This document shows, in pieces, positions 3,815 through 27,828 of a stretch of 48,476 nt of DNA. The DNA lies in the IMG/VR virus record IMGVR_UViG_3300000367_000001, positions 1 to 48,476 of that record. One strand, 5' to 3'. Position 1 is the first letter of the stretch, and each line of letters starts with the position of its first letter. Made by a program: the position numbers and the translations under genes. This stretch comes from a virus. The notes beneath the pieces are model-generated. The model had not been told where the DNA came from. It was given only the letters and a program-made list of their open reading frames with translations, and did not search any database.

Positions 3815-4166
3815 GGAATACTTGACCTTCCCCTGCCCCCACCCCGAGTGTGACTGGGCTGCGCACCTCCCCCAGATCCTGGTCAATGAGCACACCTACT
3901 ACCACGTCGTGCTCCCGCCCGTCATTGAGCACATCGAAGAGGACCACAAGGAGATCTACGACGAGATGCGCAACCAGGCGCTTGCCGCCATGGGGGAGTC
4001 AGACATCCGAGAGCGCAACCGTGGCAGGGAGCAGATCCTCGTAGCGTGCCCCTCAGTGAGATGCTGGTGGTATCGCGTGTGTGACGTGCCCCGGAGCCAG
4101 GAAGAGGCCAACAAGATCTCATACGTAGCCGACGAGCACTACATGGACCACTTCATCAAGGGCTAG
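3744..4166 (+). CDS. 140-aa protein with putative zinc site
   Basis: ATG 3744 has GGGGAGG 7 nt upstream. The order is a helix MVAMFKMEHHVQIFNEEY, then CPHPECDW (C-x4-C with nearby His), a His-rich helix (HIEEDHKEIYDEM) and a second CPSVRCWW motif. Two C-x4-C pairs suggest one or two metal sites. It is the last rightward gene and its end overlaps the convergent gene by 4 nt. Family not recognised. Confidence 0.7.
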   Translation: MDNTALPMMVAMFKMEHHVQIFNEEYLTFPCPHPECDWAAHLPQILVNEHTYYHVVLPPVIEHIEEDHKEIYDEMRNQALAAMGESDIRERNRGREQILVACPSVRCWWYRVCDVPRSQEEANKISYVADEHYMDHFIKG

Positions 4167-4834
4167 GACTCGTTCTCGAACCACGGCTGGCCGCGTCGAT
4201 TGAAGAGCCTCCCCTGCTTGGATTGCGCTATCTCGTTCACGCTCTCCGCAACCTCTTGATGCAAGGTACTGGTGCCATATCGGGTCTCACCCTCATGGCC
4301 GTAGGCAGCGAATGAGGGAGTGCCCTCGTAACCCTCATACTCCCGGTGGTGGTAGGGCACCGTGTCGAGCACCTGGGCGTCTTGGAAACTCCGCAAGCGC
4401 ACCGAGGTCGAGCCTGGATCCTCGAACTTGTTCTCGTAGTGCAGGTTGCCGCCCGTGGCCTCCTCGGCCTCGATCGCAGCACGAGGAGGGCTCATGTACG
4501 AGGTTGTTTGCATCTTGTCCATCGAGTTTACAACCTCATCTTCGTAGTGCTCGGCGCTCTCGGCGGGCGGAAGCGAGGGAGCACGGAAGGCGGTGATGTA
4601 GCCCTTGCCTCGCTCCAATGGATACCCTCCAGGCGTCCTCTGAATGGTCTTCTTGGGCACCTTGGAGTAGGAGCGATCCAAAGCAGCGTCGATCGTGCCG
4701 CCGTGGAAAGGCTGGTCGGTGATGTTCGGATTAGGAGGATGATTGCTGTAGTGGTAGTAGATCGAGGAGTCCTGAGGCTCGGGAGGCTCGAAGAGATGGG
4801 GCTGCTCGAACTGTCCCTCGTTGAGGTTCGGCAT
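4163..4834 (-). CDS. tagged putative ADP-ribosyltransferase-like protein 1
   Basis: 223 aa. N-terminal tag MPNLNEGQFEQPHLFEP (1-17). An ART-like core follows: HGGT with His44 (FHGGTIDAALDRS), GKGYITAFRA (Tyr79), and the Glu motif LHYENKFEDPGSTS (about 131-144). This H...Y...E order, with a final Y.N..E..GS.S strand, resembles the ART domains of phage and plasmid 'polyvalent' proteins as I recall them; a profile search would be needed. It is the last gene of the nine-gene operon and starts in a TGATG overlap. The substrate is unknown. Alternatives are a non-catalytic ART fold or a structural protein. Confidence 0.6.
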   Translation of the reverse strand: MPNLNEGQFEQPHLFEPPEPQDSSIYYHYSNHPPNPNITDQPFHGGTIDAALDRSYSKVPKKTIQRTPGGYPLERGKGYITAFRAPSLPPAESAEHYEDEVVNSMDKMQTTSYMSPPRAAIEAEEATGGNLHYENKFEDPGSTSVRLRSFQDAQVLDTVPYHHREYEGYEGTPSFAAYGHEGETRYGTSTLHQEVAESVNEIAQSKQGRLFNRRGQPWFENES

Positions 4835-5766
4835 CAGATGTCCCTACCGTGACGGCGGCGCTTGCGAGTCCACTGCAGGTTCTCCGCAGGACCGTAGGGA
4901 TCATCTGGATCAGCCGGTCGAGCCCAGAAGTCCGAGCCTCCGCTGAAGCCCTGCGCTCGGAGATCAGAGGCCGAGGCGGGAAGCGGAGGCTGGTAGGTCT
5001 GCTCCTCGCGGGTGTAGTTGACCGGAATCCCTTGGTCCTCGAAGCGCTGACCCACTTCCATGCGCTCCTGGGTCTTCTGTGCCTGGTTGAATCCGGGCTC
5101 GTTGAGCACCGCGCGCTCAGGGAGGTTCATCTCCACACCTCGGACTTCTTCGAGTCCCACGCCAAGGCGTCCGGGGGTAGGTTCCACCTGAGCCTCCACG
5201 TACTTGAATGACCCCAGGGCGGTGGGGTTGTCCACGAACGCCTGCCGCTCGACATCACGGTCATAGTGGTTCCTGCGGTCGAGGACCGAGGCCGACATCG
5301 AGACATTGCTCCTACCCGATGCCACGTCCTCGATGGGAACCACGGGCGCAGTCTCTCCGAGAGAGTCGCCGTGCATGATCGTGGTACGAGGACGCACCGA
5401 GCGGCTCAACTGCATCCCCACCGCTCCGTACTGGCCCTCGTCGCTGCGATGTAACTGACTTACGCCAGGAGTCTGAACGCTGCCGTAAATCGGATTGCTA
5501 ATCCCTTGGGCCGTCTCCCACTTGTAGCGAAAGTCCGGCGTGTACGACCCCTGAGAGGTGCCGGTGTGGTGCTGGCTCAGAATCTCCTCATCATCGAGGA
5601 CGTGGTGCGCCTCCCGAACGGGCGCATTGACCTGCACGACCCCGCCACGGGCGTAGTTCTGCATCTCCTCGTGGTAGCGGTCCTCCGTGGTCGGCTGCCC
5701 GACCTCCTGCCGTGATCGGGGGAACAGCGACGGTTGGGTGAACTGCTGAGAGTTGAGTCTCGGCAT
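4834..5766 (-). CDS. tagged protein, long variable body
   Basis: 310 aa from ATG 5766 (TGATG with the upstream stop; a longer frame exists but begins inside the neighbour). The tag is MPRLNSQQFTQPSLFPR. The middle contains YGAVGMQLSRSVRPRTTIMH followed by GDSLG. An R-T-T-x-x-x-G-D-S arrangement recalls tails of some phage head proteins and DUF3626, but I would not assign it. No H-G-T or Y.N..E motif is seen, so it is probably a different domain on the same tag. The C-terminus is basic (RKRRRHGRD). Confidence 0.55.
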   Translation of the reverse strand: MPRLNSQQFTQPSLFPRSRQEVGQPTTEDRYHEEMQNYARGGVVQVNAPVREAHHVLDDEEILSQHHTGTSQGSYTPDFRYKWETAQGISNPIYGSVQTPGVSQLHRSDEGQYGAVGMQLSRSVRPRTTIMHGDSLGETAPVVPIEDVASGRSNVSMSASVLDRRNHYDRDVERQAFVDNPTALGSFKYVEAQVEPTPGRLGVGLEEVRGVEMNLPERAVLNEPGFNQAQKTQERMEVGQRFEDQGIPVNYTREEQTYQPPLPASASDLRAQGFSGGSDFWARPADPDDPYGPAENLQWTRKRRRHGRDI

Positions 5767-6482
5767 CAGGCATACCTCCCCGTGCCCGGAGCCCCCCCGA
5801 AGGGCGGGTGCTCCTTCCAGGTGATCCCCCAAGGATCATGCTCGTTGAACAACGCCTGCTGGTGAGGCTCGTTGGCGGGGTACTTCACCCGCTGCACAGG
5901 GTCGTTGATGGGCGGCTCCTTCTGAGGAACACCACGGGGTTTACGCTCTAGGTGGGGGTACCCCCTGACATTGAACGGCTGCTGACCCACCACCTCGACA
6001 TGGCTCAAGCCCGGAACCACCGCGCTGATCGAGCCACGGTCCTCGGCATCGTTGGTGTAGTACAGGCCCCGCTCACCGAGGTTCTCGGTGTTGCGCTGCT
6101 GCCACTCGACACGGCGCTGCTTCCAGTCATCCCGGCCTTGAGGAGAGTCTGGGGGCTCCTCTCCAACGTGCTCTTGGAACGCTTCTCCGGCGTACCCCAA
6201 GCCCTCGTCATCAGAGATCATGGTGTTGGCGAAGGAGTCTGAGACCGGCACCTCGGGGGCGTTGGCCATCTCTCCCCGAATCCGCAGCGCGTACATCTGC
6301 CCAGTGCTGCGCGGCCGAGAGATGTCCGCTGCTGCCTGCTGCGTCCCCATGTGTAGTGGATGATCAGTGATGCGGGGGTCCAGACCCTCCCCGCGAGAGA
6401 AGTGCGCATAGACGTTGGGGTCTTGAGTCGGACCAGGATCGAACATCCTGGGCTGGAACTGGCTCTCGTTGAGGTTAGGCAC
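5766..6482 (-). CDS. tagged putative ADP-ribosyltransferase-like protein 2
   Basis: 238 aa. The start is GTG 6482, because the tag VPNLNESQFQPRMFDPG begins there and GGAAGGAA precedes it. Motifs: HMGTQQAAADI (His44), GQMYALRIRG (Tyr64), SDSFAN and YYTNDAEDRGSIS (about 141-153). It is a close paralogue of the gene at 7302-8051, sharing even the C-terminal FN...TW..HPPFG..PG.GRY. Its start overlaps the upstream stop region by 8 nt. Predicted ART-like; activity unproven. Confidence 0.6.
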   Translation of the reverse strand: MPNLNESQFQPRMFDPGPTQDPNVYAHFSRGEGLDPRITDHPLHMGTQQAAADISRPRSTGQMYALRIRGEMANAPEVPVSDSFANTMISDDEGLGYAGEAFQEHVGEEPPDSPQGRDDWKQRRVEWQQRNTENLGERGLYYTNDAEDRGSISAVVPGLSHVEVVGQQPFNVRGYPHLERKPRGVPQKEPPINDPVQRVKYPANEPHQQALFNEHDPWGITWKEHPPFGGAPGTGRYA

Positions 6483-7302
6483 GAGGGTTCCTTCCCATCC
6501 GCGACCACGCATCGCTGGGCTTGTAGGCAGTCCCAGGCAGTTGGCCCAGTTCAGGGGGCTGGTGGCTCAGCCGGTGCTCGTGGGATTCCTCCACGGCAGG
6601 AGAGCGGATGCTCTCGCCGACGTTGCCGAACTGCTGCTCGTTGGTGAGTAGCGCGTGGCGCACGTCCTTGGCACGAGGCGGGTGATCTCGCAGGTACTCC
6701 CGCTCGGCTCGCACACCGGGAGGCACAGGAAGGCCCTCGCCCACTGCCTGGTCCACTAACTCCCCGTGGGTGGTCAGCGCGCTCTTGGGGGCCACCACTG
6801 AGATCGAGCCAGTGTCCTCGTGATCGTTGGTGTACCTCAGCCCTCCCAAGGTCTCGTAATCCTCACGAGCGAACCTGATCGTGTCCTGTAACTCATGGTC
6901 ATCATAGTCGTAGTCATCGTCCCCAAGATCCCCTTGCTCGTCAGCGAACTCGTTCAGGTAGTCATCCATAGCGAAGGAGTCATCGTTCGAGGCAATGTTG
7001 GCGTAGGCGTCGCTGACCGGGCCTGGCTGCCACTGCATCTGGCTCTCATCGAGGGCCATGGGATAGAGGTAACCCTCTCCTCCCGTACTACTCGCACGGT
7101 CGGCTGCGGCGCTCAACGTGCCAGCGTGTGTGGCCCGGTAAGGCTCCCAATCCCTGATCGGGTCACGAGACGAGTGCCACTGCACGTCGGGACGGGCCAT
7201 GAACTCGTGCTGGCGCTGAAGCCACGGCTCGCCCTCGTGTGAGGGGCCTGGGTCGAACAACGGCTCCTGCTGAGGGAACTGGTTCTCGTTGAGATTCGGC
7301 AT
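6475..7302 (-). CDS. tagged putative ADP-ribosyltransferase-like protein 3
   Basis: 275 aa. Tag MPNLNENQFPQQEPLFDPGP. ART-like motifs: THAGTLSAAADRA (His59), GEGYLYPMALD (Tyr78/80), SDAYAN, an acidic insert (DDDYDYDDHE), and GGLRYTNDHEDTGSISVVAP (about 153-172), the clearest Glu motif of the set. The C-terminal 100 residues are unlike the paralogues. TGATG start coupling to the upstream gene. Confidence 0.62.
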   Translation of the reverse strand: MPNLNENQFPQQEPLFDPGPSHEGEPWLQRQHEFMARPDVQWHSSRDPIRDWEPYRATHAGTLSAAADRASSTGGEGYLYPMALDESQMQWQPGPVSDAYANIASNDDSFAMDDYLNEFADEQGDLGDDDYDYDDHELQDTIRFAREDYETLGGLRYTNDHEDTGSISVVAPKSALTTHGELVDQAVGEGLPVPPGVRAEREYLRDHPPRAKDVRHALLTNEQQFGNVGESIRSPAVEESHEHRLSHQPPELGQLPGTAYKPSDAWSRMGRNPRA

Positions 7303-8051
7303 CAGGAGTACCTCCCTCGTCCTGGGCTGTCACCGAAGGGCGGGTGGTCCTGCCAAGTCACATCAGGCTTGTCCCGGTTGAACATCGCCTGCTGGTACGG
7401 CTCATCCGCCGGGCGGGTCTGAACCTGCTGCACCGGGTCATCGATGATCTCTTTGGCCATCACTTCCTTGGATCTGGTGGGCCTGATCCCAACACGGGAA
7501 TAATCGCTGGAGCGATAAGGCTGTTGGCCAACGACTTCCGCCTGACCCAACCCAGAGACCACGACGCTGGTCGAACCACGATCTTCTTCGGAGTTCTCGT
7601 AGTACAGACCGCGCCCACCGATGTTTTCGATGTTCTCCTCTTGCCACGCCAGAGCGTCCGCTTCCCAGTCCTCGCGCTTGTCCGCCAACTCCGCCGCACG
7701 TCCAGGGTGTAGATCGGGGTCTAATGGCCTTTCCATCCCGGTGTGCTGCTCGTACGCGGCCTGCGCGTACCCGCTGCCGGGGCGCGAGTACATGGCGTTG
7801 GCGAAGGCATCCGAGACCGGCATCTCCGGAGCGTTGGCCATCTCCCCACGAGGACGTAGGGCGTACATCGTGCCTCTGGCCCACAGCCCGCCGAGGTCCA
7901 CAGAAGCCTGCTGAGTGCCCATGTGCAGCGGGCGGTCGGTGACGTCGGGATCCAGGCCCGCAGACGAGTAGTGCATGTAGATGTTGGGGTCTTGGCGCTC
8001 AGGCGGATCGAACATCCTGGGCTGGAACTGACCCTCGTTGAGGCGCGGCAT
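7302..8051 (-). CDS. tagged putative ADP-ribosyltransferase-like protein 4
   Basis: 249 aa from ATG 8051 (TGATG). Tag MPRLNEGQFQPRMFDPP. Motifs: HMGTQQASVDL (His43), GTMYALRPRG (Tyr63), SDAFAN, an alpha-helical insert, and YYENSEEDRGSTSVVV (about 150-165). The C-terminal block is shared with the 5766-6482 gene, indicating duplication of the whole gene and not only of the tag. Confidence 0.6.
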   Translation of the reverse strand: MPRLNEGQFQPRMFDPPERQDPNIYMHYSSAGLDPDVTDRPLHMGTQQASVDLGGLWARGTMYALRPRGEMANAPEMPVSDAFANAMYSRPGSGYAQAAYEQHTGMERPLDPDLHPGRAAELADKREDWEADALAWQEENIENIGGRGLYYENSEEDRGSTSVVVSGLGQAEVVGQQPYRSSDYSRVGIRPTRSKEVMAKEIIDDPVQQVQTRPADEPYQQAMFNRDKPDVTWQDHPPFGDSPGRGRYS

Positions 8052-8947
8052 CACGACCACTCTCCCGGCAACTTCGGTGGGTGACGCTTGGGCTGGTGCT
8101 TCTGGCCCTCGGCGAGGAACTCCGCACGACGGGAGTTGGCGGTCAGGTGCGAGATGGCCGCGTGCTGCAGATCTTGACCTTCCTTGATGAAGTCTTCCAT
8201 GTCGCCACGGCCCTGATCCTCGTACTCCTCGAAGTGGCGAAGAAGATCGCGCTCGGTGGGAATGCCCTTCTTCTCGAACGCGCCCGCCCCGGCGTTGGTG
8301 AAGTCACCGGCATGGACAATGCCCTCGGCGTCGGACATGAAGTCCATCATGGCGTCCTTGGACCAACCACGCCCCTTGTACAGCGGATTGATCTCGGCGT
8401 AGTTGACATGAGGACCGAACGTCCCCTCCTCGTAGTCCACGCGCCCGGCTAGCGTGCCCTCAGGGGTGTAATAGTCGCGCTGCCCCAGGCCCCAGTCACC
8501 TTCCTCGGAGTAGAGATCGCGGAAGGCCATGTCCGGGTTGACCTTCTTGGGATAGGCGTCGTAGCCGAGCGTGGACTGCTCTTGGATCGCTTGCTCATGG
8601 GCGATCTTATATGCCTCATGTTGCCGCTCCGACGAGCCCGCTGGAGAGGTGAACTCGAAGAACTGCCCGGATGTCGAGCCCATGTCTCCGTACTCGTCGT
8701 AACCGGGCGCACCAGGATCATCGGGGTCGTACCCGAGAATCCTCTTCTCATCCTTTATGAGAGGCACACTTGGCTGATCTGATGTCCAGTCACGCGCGTC
8801 GGGTGAGTCAATGCGGCTGTAGACGTTGGCCGGGCCAGCGTTGCGCACCCCGAACAACGGCATCTGCCCACTGACCTCGTCCTGGGTGCCCGGCAACTGC
8901 GGCTGATACCTCTTCGGGAACTGCACGGGGTTGGTGTTGCGGTTCAT
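8051..8947 (-). CDS. tagged GNAT-like acetyltransferase domain protein
   Basis: 298 aa from ATG 8947 with AGGAGG 5 nt upstream. The tag is divergent (MNRNTNPVQFPKRY ... QMPLFG). Residues about 160-228 look like a GNAT core: strands GTLAGRVDYEE and VNYAEINPLY, the acetyl-CoA-binding-like KGRGWSKDAM (191-200), then HAGDFTNAGAGAFEKKGIP, typical of the last helix and 'fast-Phe-x-K-x-G-F' end. No acceptor can be predicted. It contains the fragment GDMGSTSGQF, reminiscent of the ART Glu motif of its neighbours. Confidence 0.55.
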   Translation of the reverse strand: MNRNTNPVQFPKRYQPQLPGTQDEVSGQMPLFGVRNAGPANVYSRIDSPDARDWTSDQPSVPLIKDEKRILGYDPDDPGAPGYDEYGDMGSTSGQFFEFTSPAGSSERQHEAYKIAHEQAIQEQSTLGYDAYPKKVNPDMAFRDLYSEEGDWGLGQRDYYTPEGTLAGRVDYEEGTFGPHVNYAEINPLYKGRGWSKDAMMDFMSDAEGIVHAGDFTNAGAGAFEKKGIPTERDLLRHFEEYEDQGRGDMEDFIKEGQDLQHAAISHLTANSRRAEFLAEGQKHQPKRHPPKLPGEWS

Positions 8948-9603
8948 CACATCCTCCTCGCAGGATCCTCGGGTAGCCCCCGCATCTTGCGAACGAGGTC
9001 ACTGGCGTCCTCGGCTTCCACGACATGGGCCTGGATCTCTCCGCTGCCCTCACGGCTGCGCGCCGCAGCAAGACGGTGATGACCTTCGAGGACGTAAGAC
9101 TTCCCCTTCATCCTGGCCACCCACGGGTGTGCGTCATAGGTCTCGGGGTCGACGTCTTTCAACTCTCCGACCTGTGAGCGCTCGACCTCATTCTGACCAG
9201 TGCGGAGTTGGGCCTCGGGACCGATCCTCTCGACCGGAAGCGCCTCCCAGTTCTTCTGGACCGCCGACGGACGATGCGGTGTACGCGCTCCCCCACCCAC
9301 AGCCCACATGCGCTCGCTGTACGTGGGGTCGGTCTTCTCACTGACCAGCACCGCAGGAGGTGAGTCGAAAGTAGGGGAGTCAGCCTCGTAAGGCTCACCA
9401 CGCATGTTGAACTTCGTGGTGCGCTTGGGACGCCCACCCACCTCCAGGGGATGGTCGGGCTTGTCGAAGTTCATGACCTGCTGGCCTGGAGCCTCGACCT
9501 GAGGATCTCCGGCTTGGCGCACGTAGGGCTGAGGCTTGGGCTGAGCGGTCTCGGGACCGGGGTCAAAGAGACGCTCGAACTGACCTTCGTTGAGATTCGG
9601 CAT
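8947..9603 (-). CDS. tagged ParB/sulfiredoxin-like domain protein
   Basis: 218 aa. Tag MPNLNEGQFERLFDPGPET. A low-complexity middle is followed by a C-terminal domain with PWVARMKGKSYVLEGHHRLA then AARSREGSGEIQAHVV (about 155-198). This matches the ParB N-terminal/Srx pattern (G-H-H-R-L-A-A). Such domains bind nucleotides or act as nucleases in phage proteins; here only the fold class is supported. TGATG coupling at both ends. Confidence 0.6.
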   Translation of the reverse strand: MPNLNEGQFERLFDPGPETAQPKPQPYVRQAGDPQVEAPGQQVMNFDKPDHPLEVGGRPKRTTKFNMRGEPYEADSPTFDSPPAVLVSEKTDPTYSERMWAVGGGARTPHRPSAVQKNWEALPVERIGPEAQLRTGQNEVERSQVGELKDVDPETYDAHPWVARMKGKSYVLEGHHRLAAARSREGSGEIQAHVVEAEDASDLVRKMRGLPEDPARRM

Positions 9604-9803
9604 CAGCGCCTCTTCCTCCTCAGACGCTCGGCAACCCGCTCGTACACGAAGACGTCGGGAAGCCTGCGATCATCGGCAAGACGACGTGGCTCCAACTTGC
9701 GGTAGTGCGCGCCCGTGAACGGCAGCGAGGGGCCGGTGTGCTCGTAGGACTCAGGGTCCACGGGCTTGAGGTGACCGAACTGACGCTCGCTGACGTTGGC
9801 CAT
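9603..9803 (-). CDS. short tagged protein
   Basis: 66 aa, starting MANVSERQFGHLKPVDPESY, a divergent form of the tag (x-Q-F ... D-P), followed by a basic C-terminus (ERLRRKRR). It is too short for an enzymatic domain and is essentially a tag with a basic tail. Overlaps its neighbours by TGATG. Confidence 0.5.
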   Translation of the reverse strand: MANVSERQFGHLKPVDPESYEHTGPSLPFTGAHYRKLEPRRLADDRRLPDVFVYERVAERLRRKRR

Positions 9804-10363
9804 CAGAACATCGGGGTGTCGGTGTAGCCCTTGCGTTGCTTGGTCTCCTCGGGCGGCTCCATCCCTCCCTGGCGCTCCAGTTGGAGTTCACGCTGCTGGC
9901 GCTGAGCCGTGCGGTGCCCCTCGCCGATGCGGTTGCGCTGACCCTTGGGCAGGTGCTCGAAGAGGGTGCCTCGGATCGTCTGGCGAGGCTTGGCGGGCAC
10001 GGCGTGCTCGCTCATCTGATCGAGGTTGAACACGGCCCGCTGAGCGTGCTCACGTCCATAGTCCATGGCCTCGCGTCGGCCCTCGATGTTGACGCTCTCG
10101 TCCAAGAACGTCGTGCCTTCACTCTGCCACGCCCCGTGATAGGACGAGGGATCGCGCATGTGCTCGCCATGGCGCTCCAAGTACCCGCCGATGTCCTCAG
10201 GTTGGGCCGTGCCAGGCACCTGCTCCTCGTGTCCCCATCGCGAGACCATGTAGCCCGACTCAGGCTCGGCCCCGGTGTGAGGGTTCGCTGAGTAGCCGCC
10301 CCAGCCTTCGGGGTCGGTCAACTTGCCGTGGAACTCGTCTGGGGAGAGGGCGCGATGAGACAT
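9803..10363 (-). CDS. first gene of the tagged-protein operon, uncharacterised
   Basis: 186 aa from ATG 10363. The start MSHRALSPDEFHGKLTDPEG is a distant form of the tag. The segment GGYSANPHTGAEPESGYMVS, followed by YLERHG, SSYHGAW and TTFLDESVNIEG, resembles a domain I recall from other phage proteins but cannot name. No Shine-Dalgarno is seen; a TAGACT box ends 6 nt before ATG, so the mRNA may be leaderless. Confidence 0.55.
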   Translation of the reverse strand: MSHRALSPDEFHGKLTDPEGWGGYSANPHTGAEPESGYMVSRWGHEEQVPGTAQPEDIGGYLERHGEHMRDPSSYHGAWQSEGTTFLDESVNIEGRREAMDYGREHAQRAVFNLDQMSEHAVPAKPRQTIRGTLFEHLPKGQRNRIGEGHRTAQRQQRELQLERQGGMEPPEETKQRKGYTDTPMF

Positions 10364-10369
10364 GCCCAC

Positions 10370-10375
10370 AGTCTA
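10370..10375 (-). promoter_or_regulatory. -10 box implying a leaderless transcript
   Basis: Minus-strand TAGACT is separated by 6 nt (GTGGGC) from the ATG of the 10363 gene, which lacks a ribosome site. The transcription start would fall at or next to the A of ATG. It would drive the nine-gene tagged operon. The -35 is poor. Confidence 0.4.
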
Positions 10376-10426
10376 CGAGATGGGCCTCATGGATCCGAGG
10401 GAGGGCAATGCTTGGCAGACTAGGTA

Positions 10427-10455
10427 TTGCAGAACATGTCCATCCCCTATATCAT
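10427..10455 (+). promoter_or_regulatory. sigma-70-type promoter with CCGACCA leader
   Basis: TTGCAG (10427-10432), 17-bp spacer, TATCAT (10450-10455). ACCGACCA (10464-10471) and AAGGAG follow, then ATG 10485. The shared leader element and exact spacing support it. Confidence 0.6.
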
Positions 10456-10484
10456 GGGGGAGTACCGACCAAGGAGATCCCGAG

Positions 10485-11633
10485 ATGACCCAGCACATCG
10501 TCCGCACCACCTCCCTCAACGCGATCGCCGACGAGATCGTTCGCCTCAACAAGCGGGCCGCGAAGATCGGCGTCGAGCCCCTGATCCTGCGCCTCGTCTC
10601 CTCTGAGGACCGCCAAGTCCCCAACAAGGACGGGGTCTACGAGATCGTCAACTACTCGACCGTCGAACTGGTCGGCGAGACCCCGCGCCTGGAGGGCTGG
10701 ACCTTCGTCGCCGCCCTGGAGCACACCGAGGCGGGCAACATCATCCGCACCGTCCCCGGCCACGAGGACGACCTGCCCGTCGAGTACCGCGAGGTCGGCC
10801 CCGACTGCGACCACTGCGGCCTGGACCGTCGCCGCAAGGACACCTTCGTCGTTCGCCACCAGGACGGCCACTACGCCCACGTCGGGCGCACCTGCCTCAA
10901 GGACTTCACCGGGCACGCCAACCCGCTGCGCCTGGCTGCTTGGTTCGAGGCCGTCCAGGCCCTGGTGGACGACATCGAGGGCGACGACTTCGAGGGCGGG
11001 GGCGAGCGCCGCTGGAGCGTGCTGAGCCTGACCGTCGCTGCCGCCGCCGCCATCCGCGTGGACGGCTTCACCAGCCGCCGCAAGGCCAAGGAAGAGGGCG
11101 GGCTGGCCACCGCCGACACCGTCGGCCGGATCCTCAACGGCAGCCTGTCTCGCGACATCGAGAAGGACTACGAGTTCACCGCCGAGGACGAGGCCGTGGC
11201 CGAGGGCACCATCGCCTGGGTCGAGGGCCTGGCTGGCCGCAACGACTACGAGCACAACCTGCAGGTGGTCTTCGCTCAGACCTCAGCCAACGCCCGCGCC
11301 CTGGGCTTCATCGCCGCCGCCGTCAACGGCTTCCGCTCACAGGCCGAGAAGAACGCCCGCGAGCAGGCCACCACCCCAGTCCCCACCGGCCGTCAGGTGG
11401 TCGAGGGCGAGGTCGTCAAGACCGACGTCAAGGACAACGCCTACGGCGTCCGCTACGTCTTCACCGTCCGCGCCACCGAGGGCTTCCTGGTCTGGGGCAC
11501 GATCCCCAAGGCCATCCAGAGCCAGGTCGAGGTGGGCTCCAAGGTCCGCTTCACCGCCACCCTGGACCGCAGCGACCGTGACGAGACCTTCGGCTTCTTC
11601 TCGCGCCCCTCGAAGGCCGAGGTGGTCGCGTGA
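10485..11633 (+). CDS. zinc-ribbon and OB-fold-like nucleic-acid-binding protein
   Basis: 382 aa; AAGGAG 8 nt before ATG 10485. Residues about 105-140 hold CDHCGLDRRRKDTFVV then HVGRTCLKDFTG, a C-x2-C ... C zinc site. The middle is helical. The C-terminal 80 residues (GEVVKTDVKDNAYGVRYVF to FGFFSRPSKAEVV) alternate strands as in an OB-fold. Similar proteins occur in actinophages as hypotheticals. Binding to single-stranded nucleic acid is inferred. GC-rich codon use and a dedicated promoter suggest strong expression. Confidence 0.6.
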   Translation: MTQHIVRTTSLNAIADEIVRLNKRAAKIGVEPLILRLVSSEDRQVPNKDGVYEIVNYSTVELVGETPRLEGWTFVAALEHTEAGNIIRTVPGHEDDLPVEYREVGPDCDHCGLDRRRKDTFVVRHQDGHYAHVGRTCLKDFTGHANPLRLAAWFEAVQALVDDIEGDDFEGGGERRWSVLSLTVAAAAAIRVDGFTSRRKAKEEGGLATADTVGRILNGSLSRDIEKDYEFTAEDEAVAEGTIAWVEGLAGRNDYEHNLQVVFAQTSANARALGFIAAAVNGFRSQAEKNAREQATTPVPTGRQVVEGEVVKTDVKDNAYGVRYVFTVRATEGFLVWGTIPKAIQSQVEVGSKVRFTATLDRSDRDETFGFFSRPSKAEVVA

Positions 11634-12793: not shown

Positions 12794-14203
12794 CTAGTTC
12801 TTATCGCCTTCAGCCAGTTCGATGACGTCCTCAGTGGGGATCTCGTGGTCGAACTGCTTCTGGGCGTCTCCCACGCCCGAGCCGAAGATCCTGCTGAGCA
12901 CCCCCGCATTGGCCTTTGCCTCGATGCCAATGGAGATCTGGTCGCGGTTGTCGTTGATGTCCTTGAACCGCTCGGTCATCTTGAAGAAGCGATCGATCTC
13001 GGCGCTGATCGCAGGGTCGGGGTAGCCGCCCTCCAGCATCTCGCTGAATCGCCCGAACATGGCCCGTTGAGCCTGAATCTCCAGCAATCCGCTCATGACG
13101 TCGTTGAGGTCATCAGTGGACCTCAGACGCACCGGGATGTCGTAGGCGCAGTCAGACCCAGGCTTGTAGGCGGGGCACTTGGCAGCCAGGACACACTGGT
13201 TGCACTGCATGAGGTTCTCGGCCCTCACACGGGGCGAGGAGACCTCCTTGGACTCCGTGACGTTGCCGTTCTCGTCTGTGGTCTCCTCGGTGCGTGAGAA
13301 CATCTCCAAGATGGGCAACAACTTGCGATCAGCACGGGGCTCGACTTCCGTGTTCTGAGGGGGGTCAGCAGGGGCGACATCAACTTCCGAACCCCCCACT
13401 TCCGTATTCGGAGCCTCTTCTTCCATAGGCTCGGTATCTGCTAACGCCTGCTCCATGGACATGAAGGAAGCCACAGCGAGGGCACACAAAGTCTCCGCGT
13501 CCCCTTGCTCGACGGCTTCGGTATCCCACCCAGCCTCGTCCATGATCGAGCGGTGTCGCTTTACCCCACGTTCGAAGTACTTGGCGCTGTAGCGCCGCAG
13601 GCGCGTACCCGTCCACACGATCAGTTCACCGTACTTCTCGGGGCTCAGCCAGGACGAGGTCGTGGCAGCCGTGACTGGTAGTGCCGTGAGGTCAGACACC
13701 TTCGTCGTACCCAGGGCCAGGATCTCCAGCCCCTGCTGAGCAGCGACCGTCCTCACCATCCGACGCACGGCGTCGTCACCCAGCGCCCTCTCGTGGATCC
13801 CCACGTACCGGAAGCGCAGAGCAAGATCCTCGATCTCCTCCTGCCCATGCTCAGGACGCCATACTGGGACAGCCTTGTTGTCGGGCAGGTGGCTCCAGAA
13901 CTCCTTGCGATTGAGGACCACCCGCTCGTGGTCCTCGTGATCGATCTCGACCGCCAGGCTCAGTCGCTGGATGTTGGCAGCGATGAACTCGTGGTAACCG
14001 TGATCATCACGATCCTCGTGAGGCGTGCCACCATGCACCATGGCCTCGACGTCGGGCGGCAAGTGCTCGTGGATCTGGTAAGGCTTGGTCTTAGGCAGCC
14101 TGGGCACCAGGCTCGACCAGGAGTAGGAGATCGCCTCGGCCCCGTAACGGATCAGGCGATCGCGGTGGGTGGGGTTGCTCGCGCCCTCGAAGAAGATCTG
14201 CAT
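12794..14203 (-). CDS. TIM-barrel transglycosylase-like protein with Cys cluster
   Basis: 469 aa from ATG 14203, 4 nt after the upstream stop. Residues 1-255 resemble the barrel of TGT/DpdA-type enzymes: AISYSWSSL, HEFIAANIQRLSLAVEIDHE, KAVPVWRPEHG, FRYVGIHE, LEILALGTTK and LPVTAATTSSWLSPEKYGEL. The Asp expected near the SSW element in DpdA (V-D-S-T-S-W) is Ala/Thr here, so catalysis is doubtful. After an acidic linker, Cys334, 337, 343 and 352 form a likely metal site and a helical C-terminal domain follows. No queuosine or preQ0 genes lie in the window. An alternative is a packaging-related scaffold. Confidence 0.4.
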   Translation of the reverse strand: MQIFFEGASNPTHRDRLIRYGAEAISYSWSSLVPRLPKTKPYQIHEHLPPDVEAMVHGGTPHEDRDDHGYHEFIAANIQRLSLAVEIDHEDHERVVLNRKEFWSHLPDNKAVPVWRPEHGQEEIEDLALRFRYVGIHERALGDDAVRRMVRTVAAQQGLEILALGTTKVSDLTALPVTAATTSSWLSPEKYGELIVWTGTRLRRYSAKYFERGVKRHRSIMDEAGWDTEAVEQGDAETLCALAVASFMSMEQALADTEPMEEEAPNTEVGGSEVDVAPADPPQNTEVEPRADRKLLPILEMFSRTEETTDENGNVTESKEVSSPRVRAENLMQCNQCVLAAKCPAYKPGSDCAYDIPVRLRSTDDLNDVMSGLLEIQAQRAMFGRFSEMLEGGYPDPAISAEIDRFFKMTERFKDINDNRDQISIGIEAKANAGVLSRIFGSGVGDAQKQFDHEIPTEDVIELAEGDKN

Positions 14204-14207
14204 GAGA

Positions 14208-14627
14208 TCAAGGGTACAGGGCCTCGAAGGCTCGACGGTTGACGTCCCTGGGGTACGAGGTCTGAGCCTCACGGAAGCAGAAGGCACTGATCCCCGTCTC
14301 GCTCAGAGCGTTCACGACCTCCAGATCCGCATCGACATGGAACAGCACCGTGCTCTGCAAGCCCATGGCCTGGAGCACGGCCTCGACCACCATCTCGTCG
14401 TGCTTGAGGTTGGTGACCCAAGGGATGGCCGTCCAGCGGACCTGTCGCTCCAGCCACTTCATGGCGTGGTCTCGGGGCGCGTCAACGGGGATCAGGACAT
14501 GCAAGGGGAACCGCTCAGAGAACGCCTCCACGAGTGCCAGGCCCTGGGGGATGGCTCGTGCTGCGGTGATTGGTGTTCCCTGCTTCCAATCAGCCAGCAC
14601 CCCCTCGAAGCGGACGGTGACGATCAT
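14208..14627 (-). CDS. degenerate HAD-like protein
   Basis: 139 aa. MIVTVRFEGVLADWKQGTPI resembles HAD motif I (D-x-D-G-T-L), but the catalytic Asp pair is replaced (R-F-E-G-V-L). Later FPLHVLIPVDAPRDHAMKWL and VTNLKHDEMVVEAVL fit the Rossmann core, and LFHVDADLEVVNAL the last acidic motif. It is probably a HAD-fold protein without phosphatase chemistry, coupled to the barrel gene downstream. The start overlaps the preceding stop (ATGA). Confidence 0.45.
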   Translation of the reverse strand: MIVTVRFEGVLADWKQGTPITAARAIPQGLALVEAFSERFPLHVLIPVDAPRDHAMKWLERQVRWTAIPWVTNLKHDEMVVEAVLQAMGLQSTVLFHVDADLEVVNALSETGISAFCFREAQTSYPRDVNRRAFEALYP

Positions 14628-27345: not shown

Positions 27346-27828
27346 TCACCCTCGCCAATCTGGGAACGTCCAATACCGCCCACGCTCAGGATCATCAGGG
27401 CCAAGGATCCGAGGACCAACAGGACCACCAAACTGATCCCCGGTCGGATCCAGCACTCCCCCTTCAGGGGTCTCCACCCAGGCGTGAGCGCCGAACTGGT
27501 CCTCGGCCTCCGCTCCGAGGTTCTCTTCCAACTCCTCCCGGCTGTACTTCATGTCGGGGCGGGACTGATAGTCCTCACGATGAGGGGCGAACGCATGCCA
27601 ATAATCAGGACCGGACTCGACGAACTCATCCCGCTCGTTGAGCACCAGCCCTTGGCGCGTGGGAAAACCCGTTTCTTGCGACAAGACTTCTGCAGCGGCG
27701 AAACAGCCTCCCTCTGCACGAAGCGACGCGCACTTGTCAACAGACAGTACCCGTCCTCCTTCCGCAAACGCCGCCTGGCGCGCCCTTCTGACAGCATCGG
27801 GGAACTGCTGATCGTTGAGTTCGGGCAT
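27346..27828 (-). CDS. tagged transglutaminase/cysteine-peptidase-like protein
   Basis: 160 aa from ATG 27828 (TGATG). N-terminus MPELNDQQFPDAVRR is the same tag as in the 4163-10363 operon, 17 kb away. EGGCFAAAEVLSQETGFPTR (Cys42) and FGAHAWVETPEGGVLDPTGD (His115, Asp127) give the Cys-His-Asp order and local sequence of transglutaminase-like/papain-fold enzymes. Possible roles are protein or peptide cleavage or crosslinking; the substrate is unknown. It lies in the DNA-metabolism block between a zinc-ribbon protein and the 65-aa basic protein. Confidence 0.6.
   Translation of the reverse strand: MPELNDQQFPDAVRRARQAAFAEGGRVLSVDKCASLRAEGGCFAAAEVLSQETGFPTRQGLVLNERDEFVESGPDYWHAFAPHREDYQSRPDMKYSREELEENLGAEAEDQFGAHAWVETPEGGVLDPTGDQFGGPVGPRILGPDDPERGRYWTFPDWRG

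Follow-up and report, generated by a model that had tools for sequence, protein, structure and literature searches.

A shared N-terminal tag on an operon of putative virion-delivered effectors in a contractile-tailed phage

The IMG/VR virus record IMGVR_UViG_3300000367_000001, analysed here in its entirety (48476 bases, linear; hereafter the window), contains an operon of nine minus-strand open reading frames (ORFs; g1-g9) within 4163-10363. Six of them (g3, g5, g6, g7, g8 and g9) start with [MV]P[NR]LN[ES]xQF, followed by an [LM]F element. This N-terminus, about 16-18 amino acids (aa) long, is modular, being found on unrelated protein bodies of at least three families and also on an unlinked gene at 27.8 kb. 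Judging from sequence and by analogy, we give a probability of roughly 55% to the reading that the operon encodes mostly single-domain early effectors, whose loading into the virion would depend on an N-terminal sorting tag specific to the lineage. The tag is read as an interchangeable address label, and the bodies as candidate virion-delivered effectors, because the body types recur under another tag in other phages and also, untagged, in or with virion components.

In the proposed mechanism, the short disordered tag, consisting of [MV]P-x-L-N-x-x-Q-F and Q-x-x-[LM]-F, would be a sorting signal for unrelated bodies. The tagged bodies may enter the assembling virion at the head core, the portal region or the tail, would pass into the next host with the DNA and could modify host targets at once. 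The tag would act like the T4 capsid-targeting sequence (CTS) on internal proteins, by a different sequence.

The shared N-terminus

A first-pass annotation of the window had proposed the nine-gene operon, and all nine minus-strand ORFs were verified. The same annotation described all genes as coupled by TGATG, which is true for seven of the eight junctions (1-nt TGATG overlaps), while the overlap of g6 and g7 measures 8 nt and the start codon there is GTG. The tags, all on the minus strand, are located at 9559-9603 for g3 (MPNLNEGQFERLFDP), 8004-8051 for g5 (MPRLNEGQFQPRMFDP), 7249-7302 for g6 (MPNLNENQFPQQEPLFDP), 6435-6482 for g7 (VPNLNESQFQPRMFDP), 5719-5766 for g8 (MPRLNSQQFTQPSLFP) and 4784-4834 for g9 (MPNLNEGQFEQPHLFEP). 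A seventh tagged start (MPELNDQQF) was detected at 27828 and belongs to a minus-strand gene at 27346-27828, which encodes a 160 aa protein lacking the [LM]F half and lies between recA-like and polA genes. The first-pass annotation had missed this gene, and the tag is therefore not confined to the operon.

The shared tag on six genes was borne out far above the expectation from composition, with seven P.LN..QF starts in the whole window against 1.75e-4 expected. An unbiased test, in which the N-termini of all Shine-Dalgarno-preceded starts were compared pairwise with a threshold on the pair score, gave 14 pairs above threshold in the window, all 14 between tag genes; in the two large segments of phage BRock that were treated alike, no pair exceeded it. 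Chance as the origin of the tag is ruled out by these two results. Moreover, the tag codons vary synonymously between copies (CCG/CCT/CCC, AAT/AAC, GAG/GAA, CGC/AGA) and the residues stay constant; selection has therefore acted on the peptide and not on the DNA.

The tag also lies outside the folded domain. The modelled fold of the g5/g7 family (described below) starts at the WYHGS strand, about 22 residues into the window proteins, so that the tag, with six tag residues or positions, precedes its first strand. In the model of g5 itself, which is poor as a whole, the tag region has a predicted local distance difference test (pLDDT) value below 50.

Concerning the second half of the tag, the gap from QF to [LM]F varies between 2 and 5 residues, and a Q is fixed three residues before L/M in five of the six tags (g5, g6, g7, g8 and g9). 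The second motif is therefore Q-x-x-[LM]-F, a redefinition of the L/M-F-x-P element reported earlier, of which the [LM]F part stands. The start of g3 has no Q at that place, and g4 carries QMPLF further on. The motif is repeated at the C-terminal side of g5 (QQAMF, 7380-7394), g7 (QQALF, 5847-5861) and g9 (QGRLF, 4202-4216), all on the minus strand, and in ten proteins it was observed nine times against 0.31 expected from shuffled proteins.

Divergent tags had been claimed for three more genes, with different outcomes. That of g4 consists of NPVQF and a distant QMPLF, and the possible SERQF of g2 is too short to judge. For g1, the candidate 'SPDEFHG...LTDP' was rejected, as by eye it coincides with where the conserved domain starts; the alignment of g1 to the hidden Markov model (HMM) of its family begins at residue 22.

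Protein bodies of the operon

The operon proteins are 66-310 aa long, with at most one recognised domain each in Pfam and PHROGs searches. The body of g8 (4834-5766, minus strand, 310 aa), which had been left unclassified, could now be assigned. A profile of D29 gp2, SP-15 271, the DSL-LC01 post-portal protein and Tierra gp9, relatives that match PF12294 (DUF3626), finds g8 alone among the 576 window ORFs (E-value = 3.6e-17) and covers most of the 310-aa body. Judged by this homology, the g8 body is an ADP-ribosyltransferase-type (DUF3626) domain, of the kind placed C-terminally in MuF-like or post-portal head proteins. Tierra gp9, from a Mycobacterium phage, carries the annotation 'capsid maturation protease and ADP-ribosyltransferase'; its gene is flanked by the portal and scaffold genes, and the DSL-LC01 post-portal protein comes directly after the portal gene. 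The VG15 head domain was not detected in g8 by the Pfam search.

The tagless g1 (9803-10363, minus strand, 186 aa) also has relatives that are virion components or are encoded among head genes. An HMM built only from 18 members outside the window, all bearing the second tag described below (KDAxGHGSN), finds g1 alone in the window (E-value = 9.5e-20). The same model finds the Bxz1-type gp107 (MoMoMixon gp107), located among head genes, and the 1807-aa internal virion protein of cyanophage SS120-1.

Four of the tagged bodies are mutually homologous and form one family, namely those of g5 (7302-8051, 249 aa; motifs H-x-S, H-x-G-T and Y-x-N-x-x-E-D-x-G-S-x-S), g6 (6475-7302, 275 aa), g7 (5766-6482, 238 aa, GTG start) and the divergent g9 (4163-4834, 223 aa), all on the minus strand. 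The g9 body without its tag matches the g5 ORF with an E-value of 8.5e-10, and an HMM of outside members only retrieves g7 (E-value = 5.1e-14), g5 (E-value = 9.6e-9) and g6 (E-value = 1.8e-4). Outside members were first reached through the E-D-x-G-S-x-S motif and then by a wider search. They are either solo genes or domains of polyvalent proteins of 886-3645 aa together with GNAT, NUDIX, ParB-like and kinase-like segments. In L022 and L028 (our labels for outside loci) the gene of this family immediately follows the tape-measure gene. Giant multi-domain proteins that contain the domain with NUDIX, GNAT, ParB-like or PI3/4-kinase-like parts are encoded in L032, L034, L037-L040, L042 and L043.

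No Pfam family covers this domain. The model of an outside member (pLDDT 90.9) showed weak structural matches to RES toxins in the PDB (E-value = 1.4, template modelling score, TM, 0.35) and to the ADP-ribosyltransferase (ART) of the PolyVal type in a viral library (E-value = 0.6). Since profile comparison of the family with ART-PolyVal gave no similarity, we call these four proteins ART-like and not ART. The earlier description of four ART-like domains stands as a shared family, for which an ART fold is weakly supported by the modelling. The AlphaFold model of g5 with its three paralogues was of low quality (pLDDT 45), and no claim on the fold is based on it.

Regarding the remaining bodies, g3 (8947-9603, minus strand, 218 aa) is probably ParB-like, as claimed before. 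The match is weak (PHROG 1033, E-value = 0.0032; Pfam ParBc_2, E-value = 0.12, below the cut-off) and comes with the motif VLEGHHRLAAAR. The GNAT-like domain attributed to g4 (8051-8947, minus strand, 298 aa; NPVQF, then QMPLFG at residue 28) was a motif read by eye and found no HMM support: g4 had no match in Pfam, PHROGs or NCBIfam, and no GNAT match even at E <= 10 in Pfam. The 66-aa g2 (9603-9803, minus strand) likewise had no match in the three databases. The protein encoded at 27.8 kb contains a C...H.W...D pattern, with Cys, His and Asp spaced as in transglutaminase/papain-like folds. Together with two matches below the cut-off (NCBIfam lasso B2, E-value = 0.033; Pfam Transglut_core3, E-value = 0.083), this is a weak hint that it may be transglutaminase/papain-like. 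Direct searches of phage records with g5, g3, g4, a g9-type consensus and the 27.8-kb protein returned nothing significant.

The recurrence of the body types in phage polyvalent or head-associated proteins, which the first-pass annotation had put forward, is supported by g8 in MuF-like proteins, g1 in the SS120-1 protein and the g5/g7 family in polyvalent proteins.

A second tag in other phages

The solo members of the g5/g7 family outside the window start with M(P)KDAxGHGSNxxG, and so do neighbouring genes whose bodies differ, namely an ART-PolyVal in L022 and a protein of the ParB_N type in L028. When IMG/VR was scanned for DNA that encodes KDAxGHGxN, without using the bodies for selection, this led to 92 stretches with about 210 distinct proteins bearing the tag at the N-terminus, and in 193 of 210 the GHG is at residue 5 or 6 (zero-based). 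Many of these genes are in arrays of 4-10 overlapping genes. Their bodies include 18 of the g1 family, while others are ART-PolyVal (lowest E-value 9e-14), ParB_N and possibly a zincin of the HEIGH type. In one large contig (L028 and L100), some tagged genes adjoin the tape-measure gene and others form an array elsewhere, similar to the window with its operon and unlinked gene.

Because a second, unrelated tag is found elsewhere on the same kinds of body, the idea of a sorting signal is much stronger than it would be from the window alone, and a second label on related proteins suggests that tagging is a general strategy. Tentatively, and with less confidence than for the operon itself, we propose that several tailed-phage lineages carry arrays of single-domain effectors in which a lineage-specific tag replaces polyvalent fusion. 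Bodies acquiring the tag would be loaded into the virion, and the arrays would be open, exchangeable payload sets. We found no description of the MPxLNxxQF or the KDAxGHGSN tag in the open-access literature searched, where queries on the GHGS tag brought up unrelated papers only; this does not prove that none exists.

The arrays of L044-L135 share M(A/P/S)KDAxGHGS(N/D/E) and have mostly unclassified bodies (e.g., L100:7278-10436, L104:2940-6505, L121:2369-6510 and L062:3804-9337). In T4-like contigs, GHGS stands between a leader (e.g., MLSFISYIKEE or MITFKELFEA), to which it is directly joined, and a cytidylyltransferase-like or DUF6267 body. These sites are located at L064:2704 and 3954 (minus strand), L106:2848 and 4210 (plus strand), L112:3631 (plus strand) and L051:2319 (minus strand). 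Read by eye, the leaders appear to resemble the CTS.

Genomic context, rival explanations and known systems

The window is probably a fragment of a genome, and its source is a contractile-tailed phage, a myovirus. Genes for baseplate wedge proteins and P2 I-like tail proteins occupy its right end, and after the tail genes come a DnaB-like helicase, a primase, a helicase, a DNA polymerase I-type protein, a RecA/UvsX-like recombinase, a Cas4-type exonuclease, an endolysin and a ribonucleotide reductase. Streptomyces myoviruses, BRock among them, have the nearest DNA polymerases (31-32% identity), and the gene order from baseplate to replication resembles theirs. The window as a whole showed no nucleotide similarity to known phages, and for its left half there was no nucleotide-level match to any record in the phage collection.

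Next to the operon, the annotated start of a plus-strand ORF at 10362-11633 (PHROG 2319) overlaps that of g1 at 10361-10364. As the PHROG 2319 match begins at residue 46, the true start is probably further inside, leaving a short divergent region. No sigma-70 promoter was found in the divergent region 10300-10620. A queuine tRNA-ribosyltransferase-like protein encoded at 12794-14287 on the minus strand (PHROG 887, E-value = 2e-42) might serve DNA or tRNA modification.

The reading as virion-delivered effectors with a sorting signal, already suggested by the first-pass annotation, is favored by the modular tag outside the fold, the virion and polyvalent kin and the second tag. In detail, the tagless g1, the lack of a profile match for a GNAT domain in g4 and the weakly supported ART fold of g5, g6, g7 and g9 do not bear it out. 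The reading is in agreement with the reported enrichment of ARTs in myoviruses and the location of about 44% of phage ARTs in contexts suggesting packaging (PMC9503650), and with the T4 internal proteins, whose diverse bodies share only the CTS (PMC3012670).

Several points weigh against this reading. The genes for terminase, portal and capsid and a recognised prohead protease are absent from the 48476-base contig, and without the first three the linkage of the operon to head genes cannot be judged. The operon itself is placed beyond the replication genes, close to the endolysin and the ribonucleotide reductase and away from head genes. Within it g1, and perhaps g2, is tagless. The exact tag was not found in another virus by two DNA-pattern scans of IMG/VR, one of which gave a single match (L010) that was rejected as chance, being situated within another frame, and the other none. 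Late expression, packaging, injection and enzymatic action of the tagged proteins are inferred steps. Finally, a clamp-binding motif is an equally good account of the Q-x-x-[LM]-F half.

This last point leads to the main rival, which we consider unlikely. The tag, above all Q-x-x-[LM]-F, would be a sliding-clamp docking motif, and the proteins, made in the cell, would dock on the host beta clamp, so that the replisome or DNA-bound proteins become targets of their enzymatic bodies. Bacterial clamp binders use QL(S/D)LF, in which some variation is tolerated, and a motif of this kind is how the toxin SocB acts (PMC9690074); Q-x-x-[LM]-F fits it. The motif exceeds its frequency in shuffled proteins (9 against 0.31), lies in a disordered segment as looked for in a beta-clamp binder, and has a Q that moves together with [LM]F and not with QF in five of the six tags; in addition, the ParB-like and RecA-adjacent genes are consistent with a DNA-linked action. 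However, docking on the clamp would leave the better conserved P-x-L-N-x-x-Q-F half unexplained. Both g3 and the 27.8-kb gene lack Q-x-x-[LM]-F, and no clamp motif is present in the sister tag KDAxGHGSN, which is borne by the same kinds of body. Known clamp-binding motifs seldom have a proline at the second position, where it is frequent in the window motifs. Sorting and clamp docking are not exclusive: sorting could be the task of one half of the tag, and docking on the clamp, once in the new host, that of the other.

Even less probable is a tag that binds a phage chaperone, inhibitor or immunity partner holding toxic bodies inactive in the producer cell, with delivery, if any, achieved otherwise. 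Small untagged proteins in the operon (g1 and g2) leave room for such a partner, and there is a precedent in contractile injection systems, where N-terminal signal peptides bind an AAA ATPase that stabilises the payloads (PMC11495950), but no candidate partner was identified, and a single one would also have to serve the distant tagged gene at 27.8 kb. A functionless remnant of duplication or body swapping, or a translation-initiation feature, is very improbable: the four paralogous bodies and the TGATG translational coupling are in its favor, but the tag codons differ synonymously with unchanged residues, the tag is on unrelated bodies and an unlinked gene, and in g6 and g9 the divergence of the body far exceeds that of the tag.

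The sorting-tag reading has its significance in that, T4 and some giant phages apart, little is known of how phages select effectors for loading into the virion, and most such effectors have come to light as single fusions. With a short tag in common, payload sets would be findable by a simple N-terminal search, which would also predict a function for hundreds of uncharacterised small phage genes.

Among known systems, the T4 internal proteins (IPI, IPII, IPIII and Alt) are alike in their small diverse bodies sharing only a short N-terminal peptide, their clustered variable genes and the presence of an ADP-ribosyltransferase (Alt) among the bodies. They differ in that MPxLNxxQF, compared by eye, bears no relation to a CTS of the M-x-x-[FY]-x-x-F-[IL]-x-E type, that no cleavage site or prohead protease was identified in the window, and that the tagged proteins are putative virion components. 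The MuF-like head proteins with a C-terminal ADP-ribosyltransferase (Tierra gp9; PF12294, DUF3626) have a body homologous to that of g8, which bears the tag where they have the MuF/VG15 head domain. Polyvalent proteins (Iyer et al., 2017; PMC5512222) share the repertoire of ART, ParB-like and g5/g7-family domains, solo versions included, but unite many domains in one polypeptide, whereas the window has separate proteins with a common tag. Extracellular contractile injection systems also place a disordered N-terminal signal before diverse effector bodies (PMC11495950), with signals of 50-70 aa compared to about 16-18 aa in the phage window. The bacterial beta-clamp motif QL(S/D)LF resembles the Q-x-x-[LM]-F half, thus covering only half of the window tag, and its binding here is putative. 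The KDAxGHGSN arrays of uncultivated phages match the window in their overlapping multi-gene layout, their shared N-terminal tag and their g1, g5/g7, ART and ParB kinds of body, although the tag sequence is unrelated. The finding is a variation on T4-style tagged internal proteins and on polyvalent effectors, and its new elements are the tag, the use of this tag as a module on separate single-domain proteins, and the GHGS arrays that parallel it.

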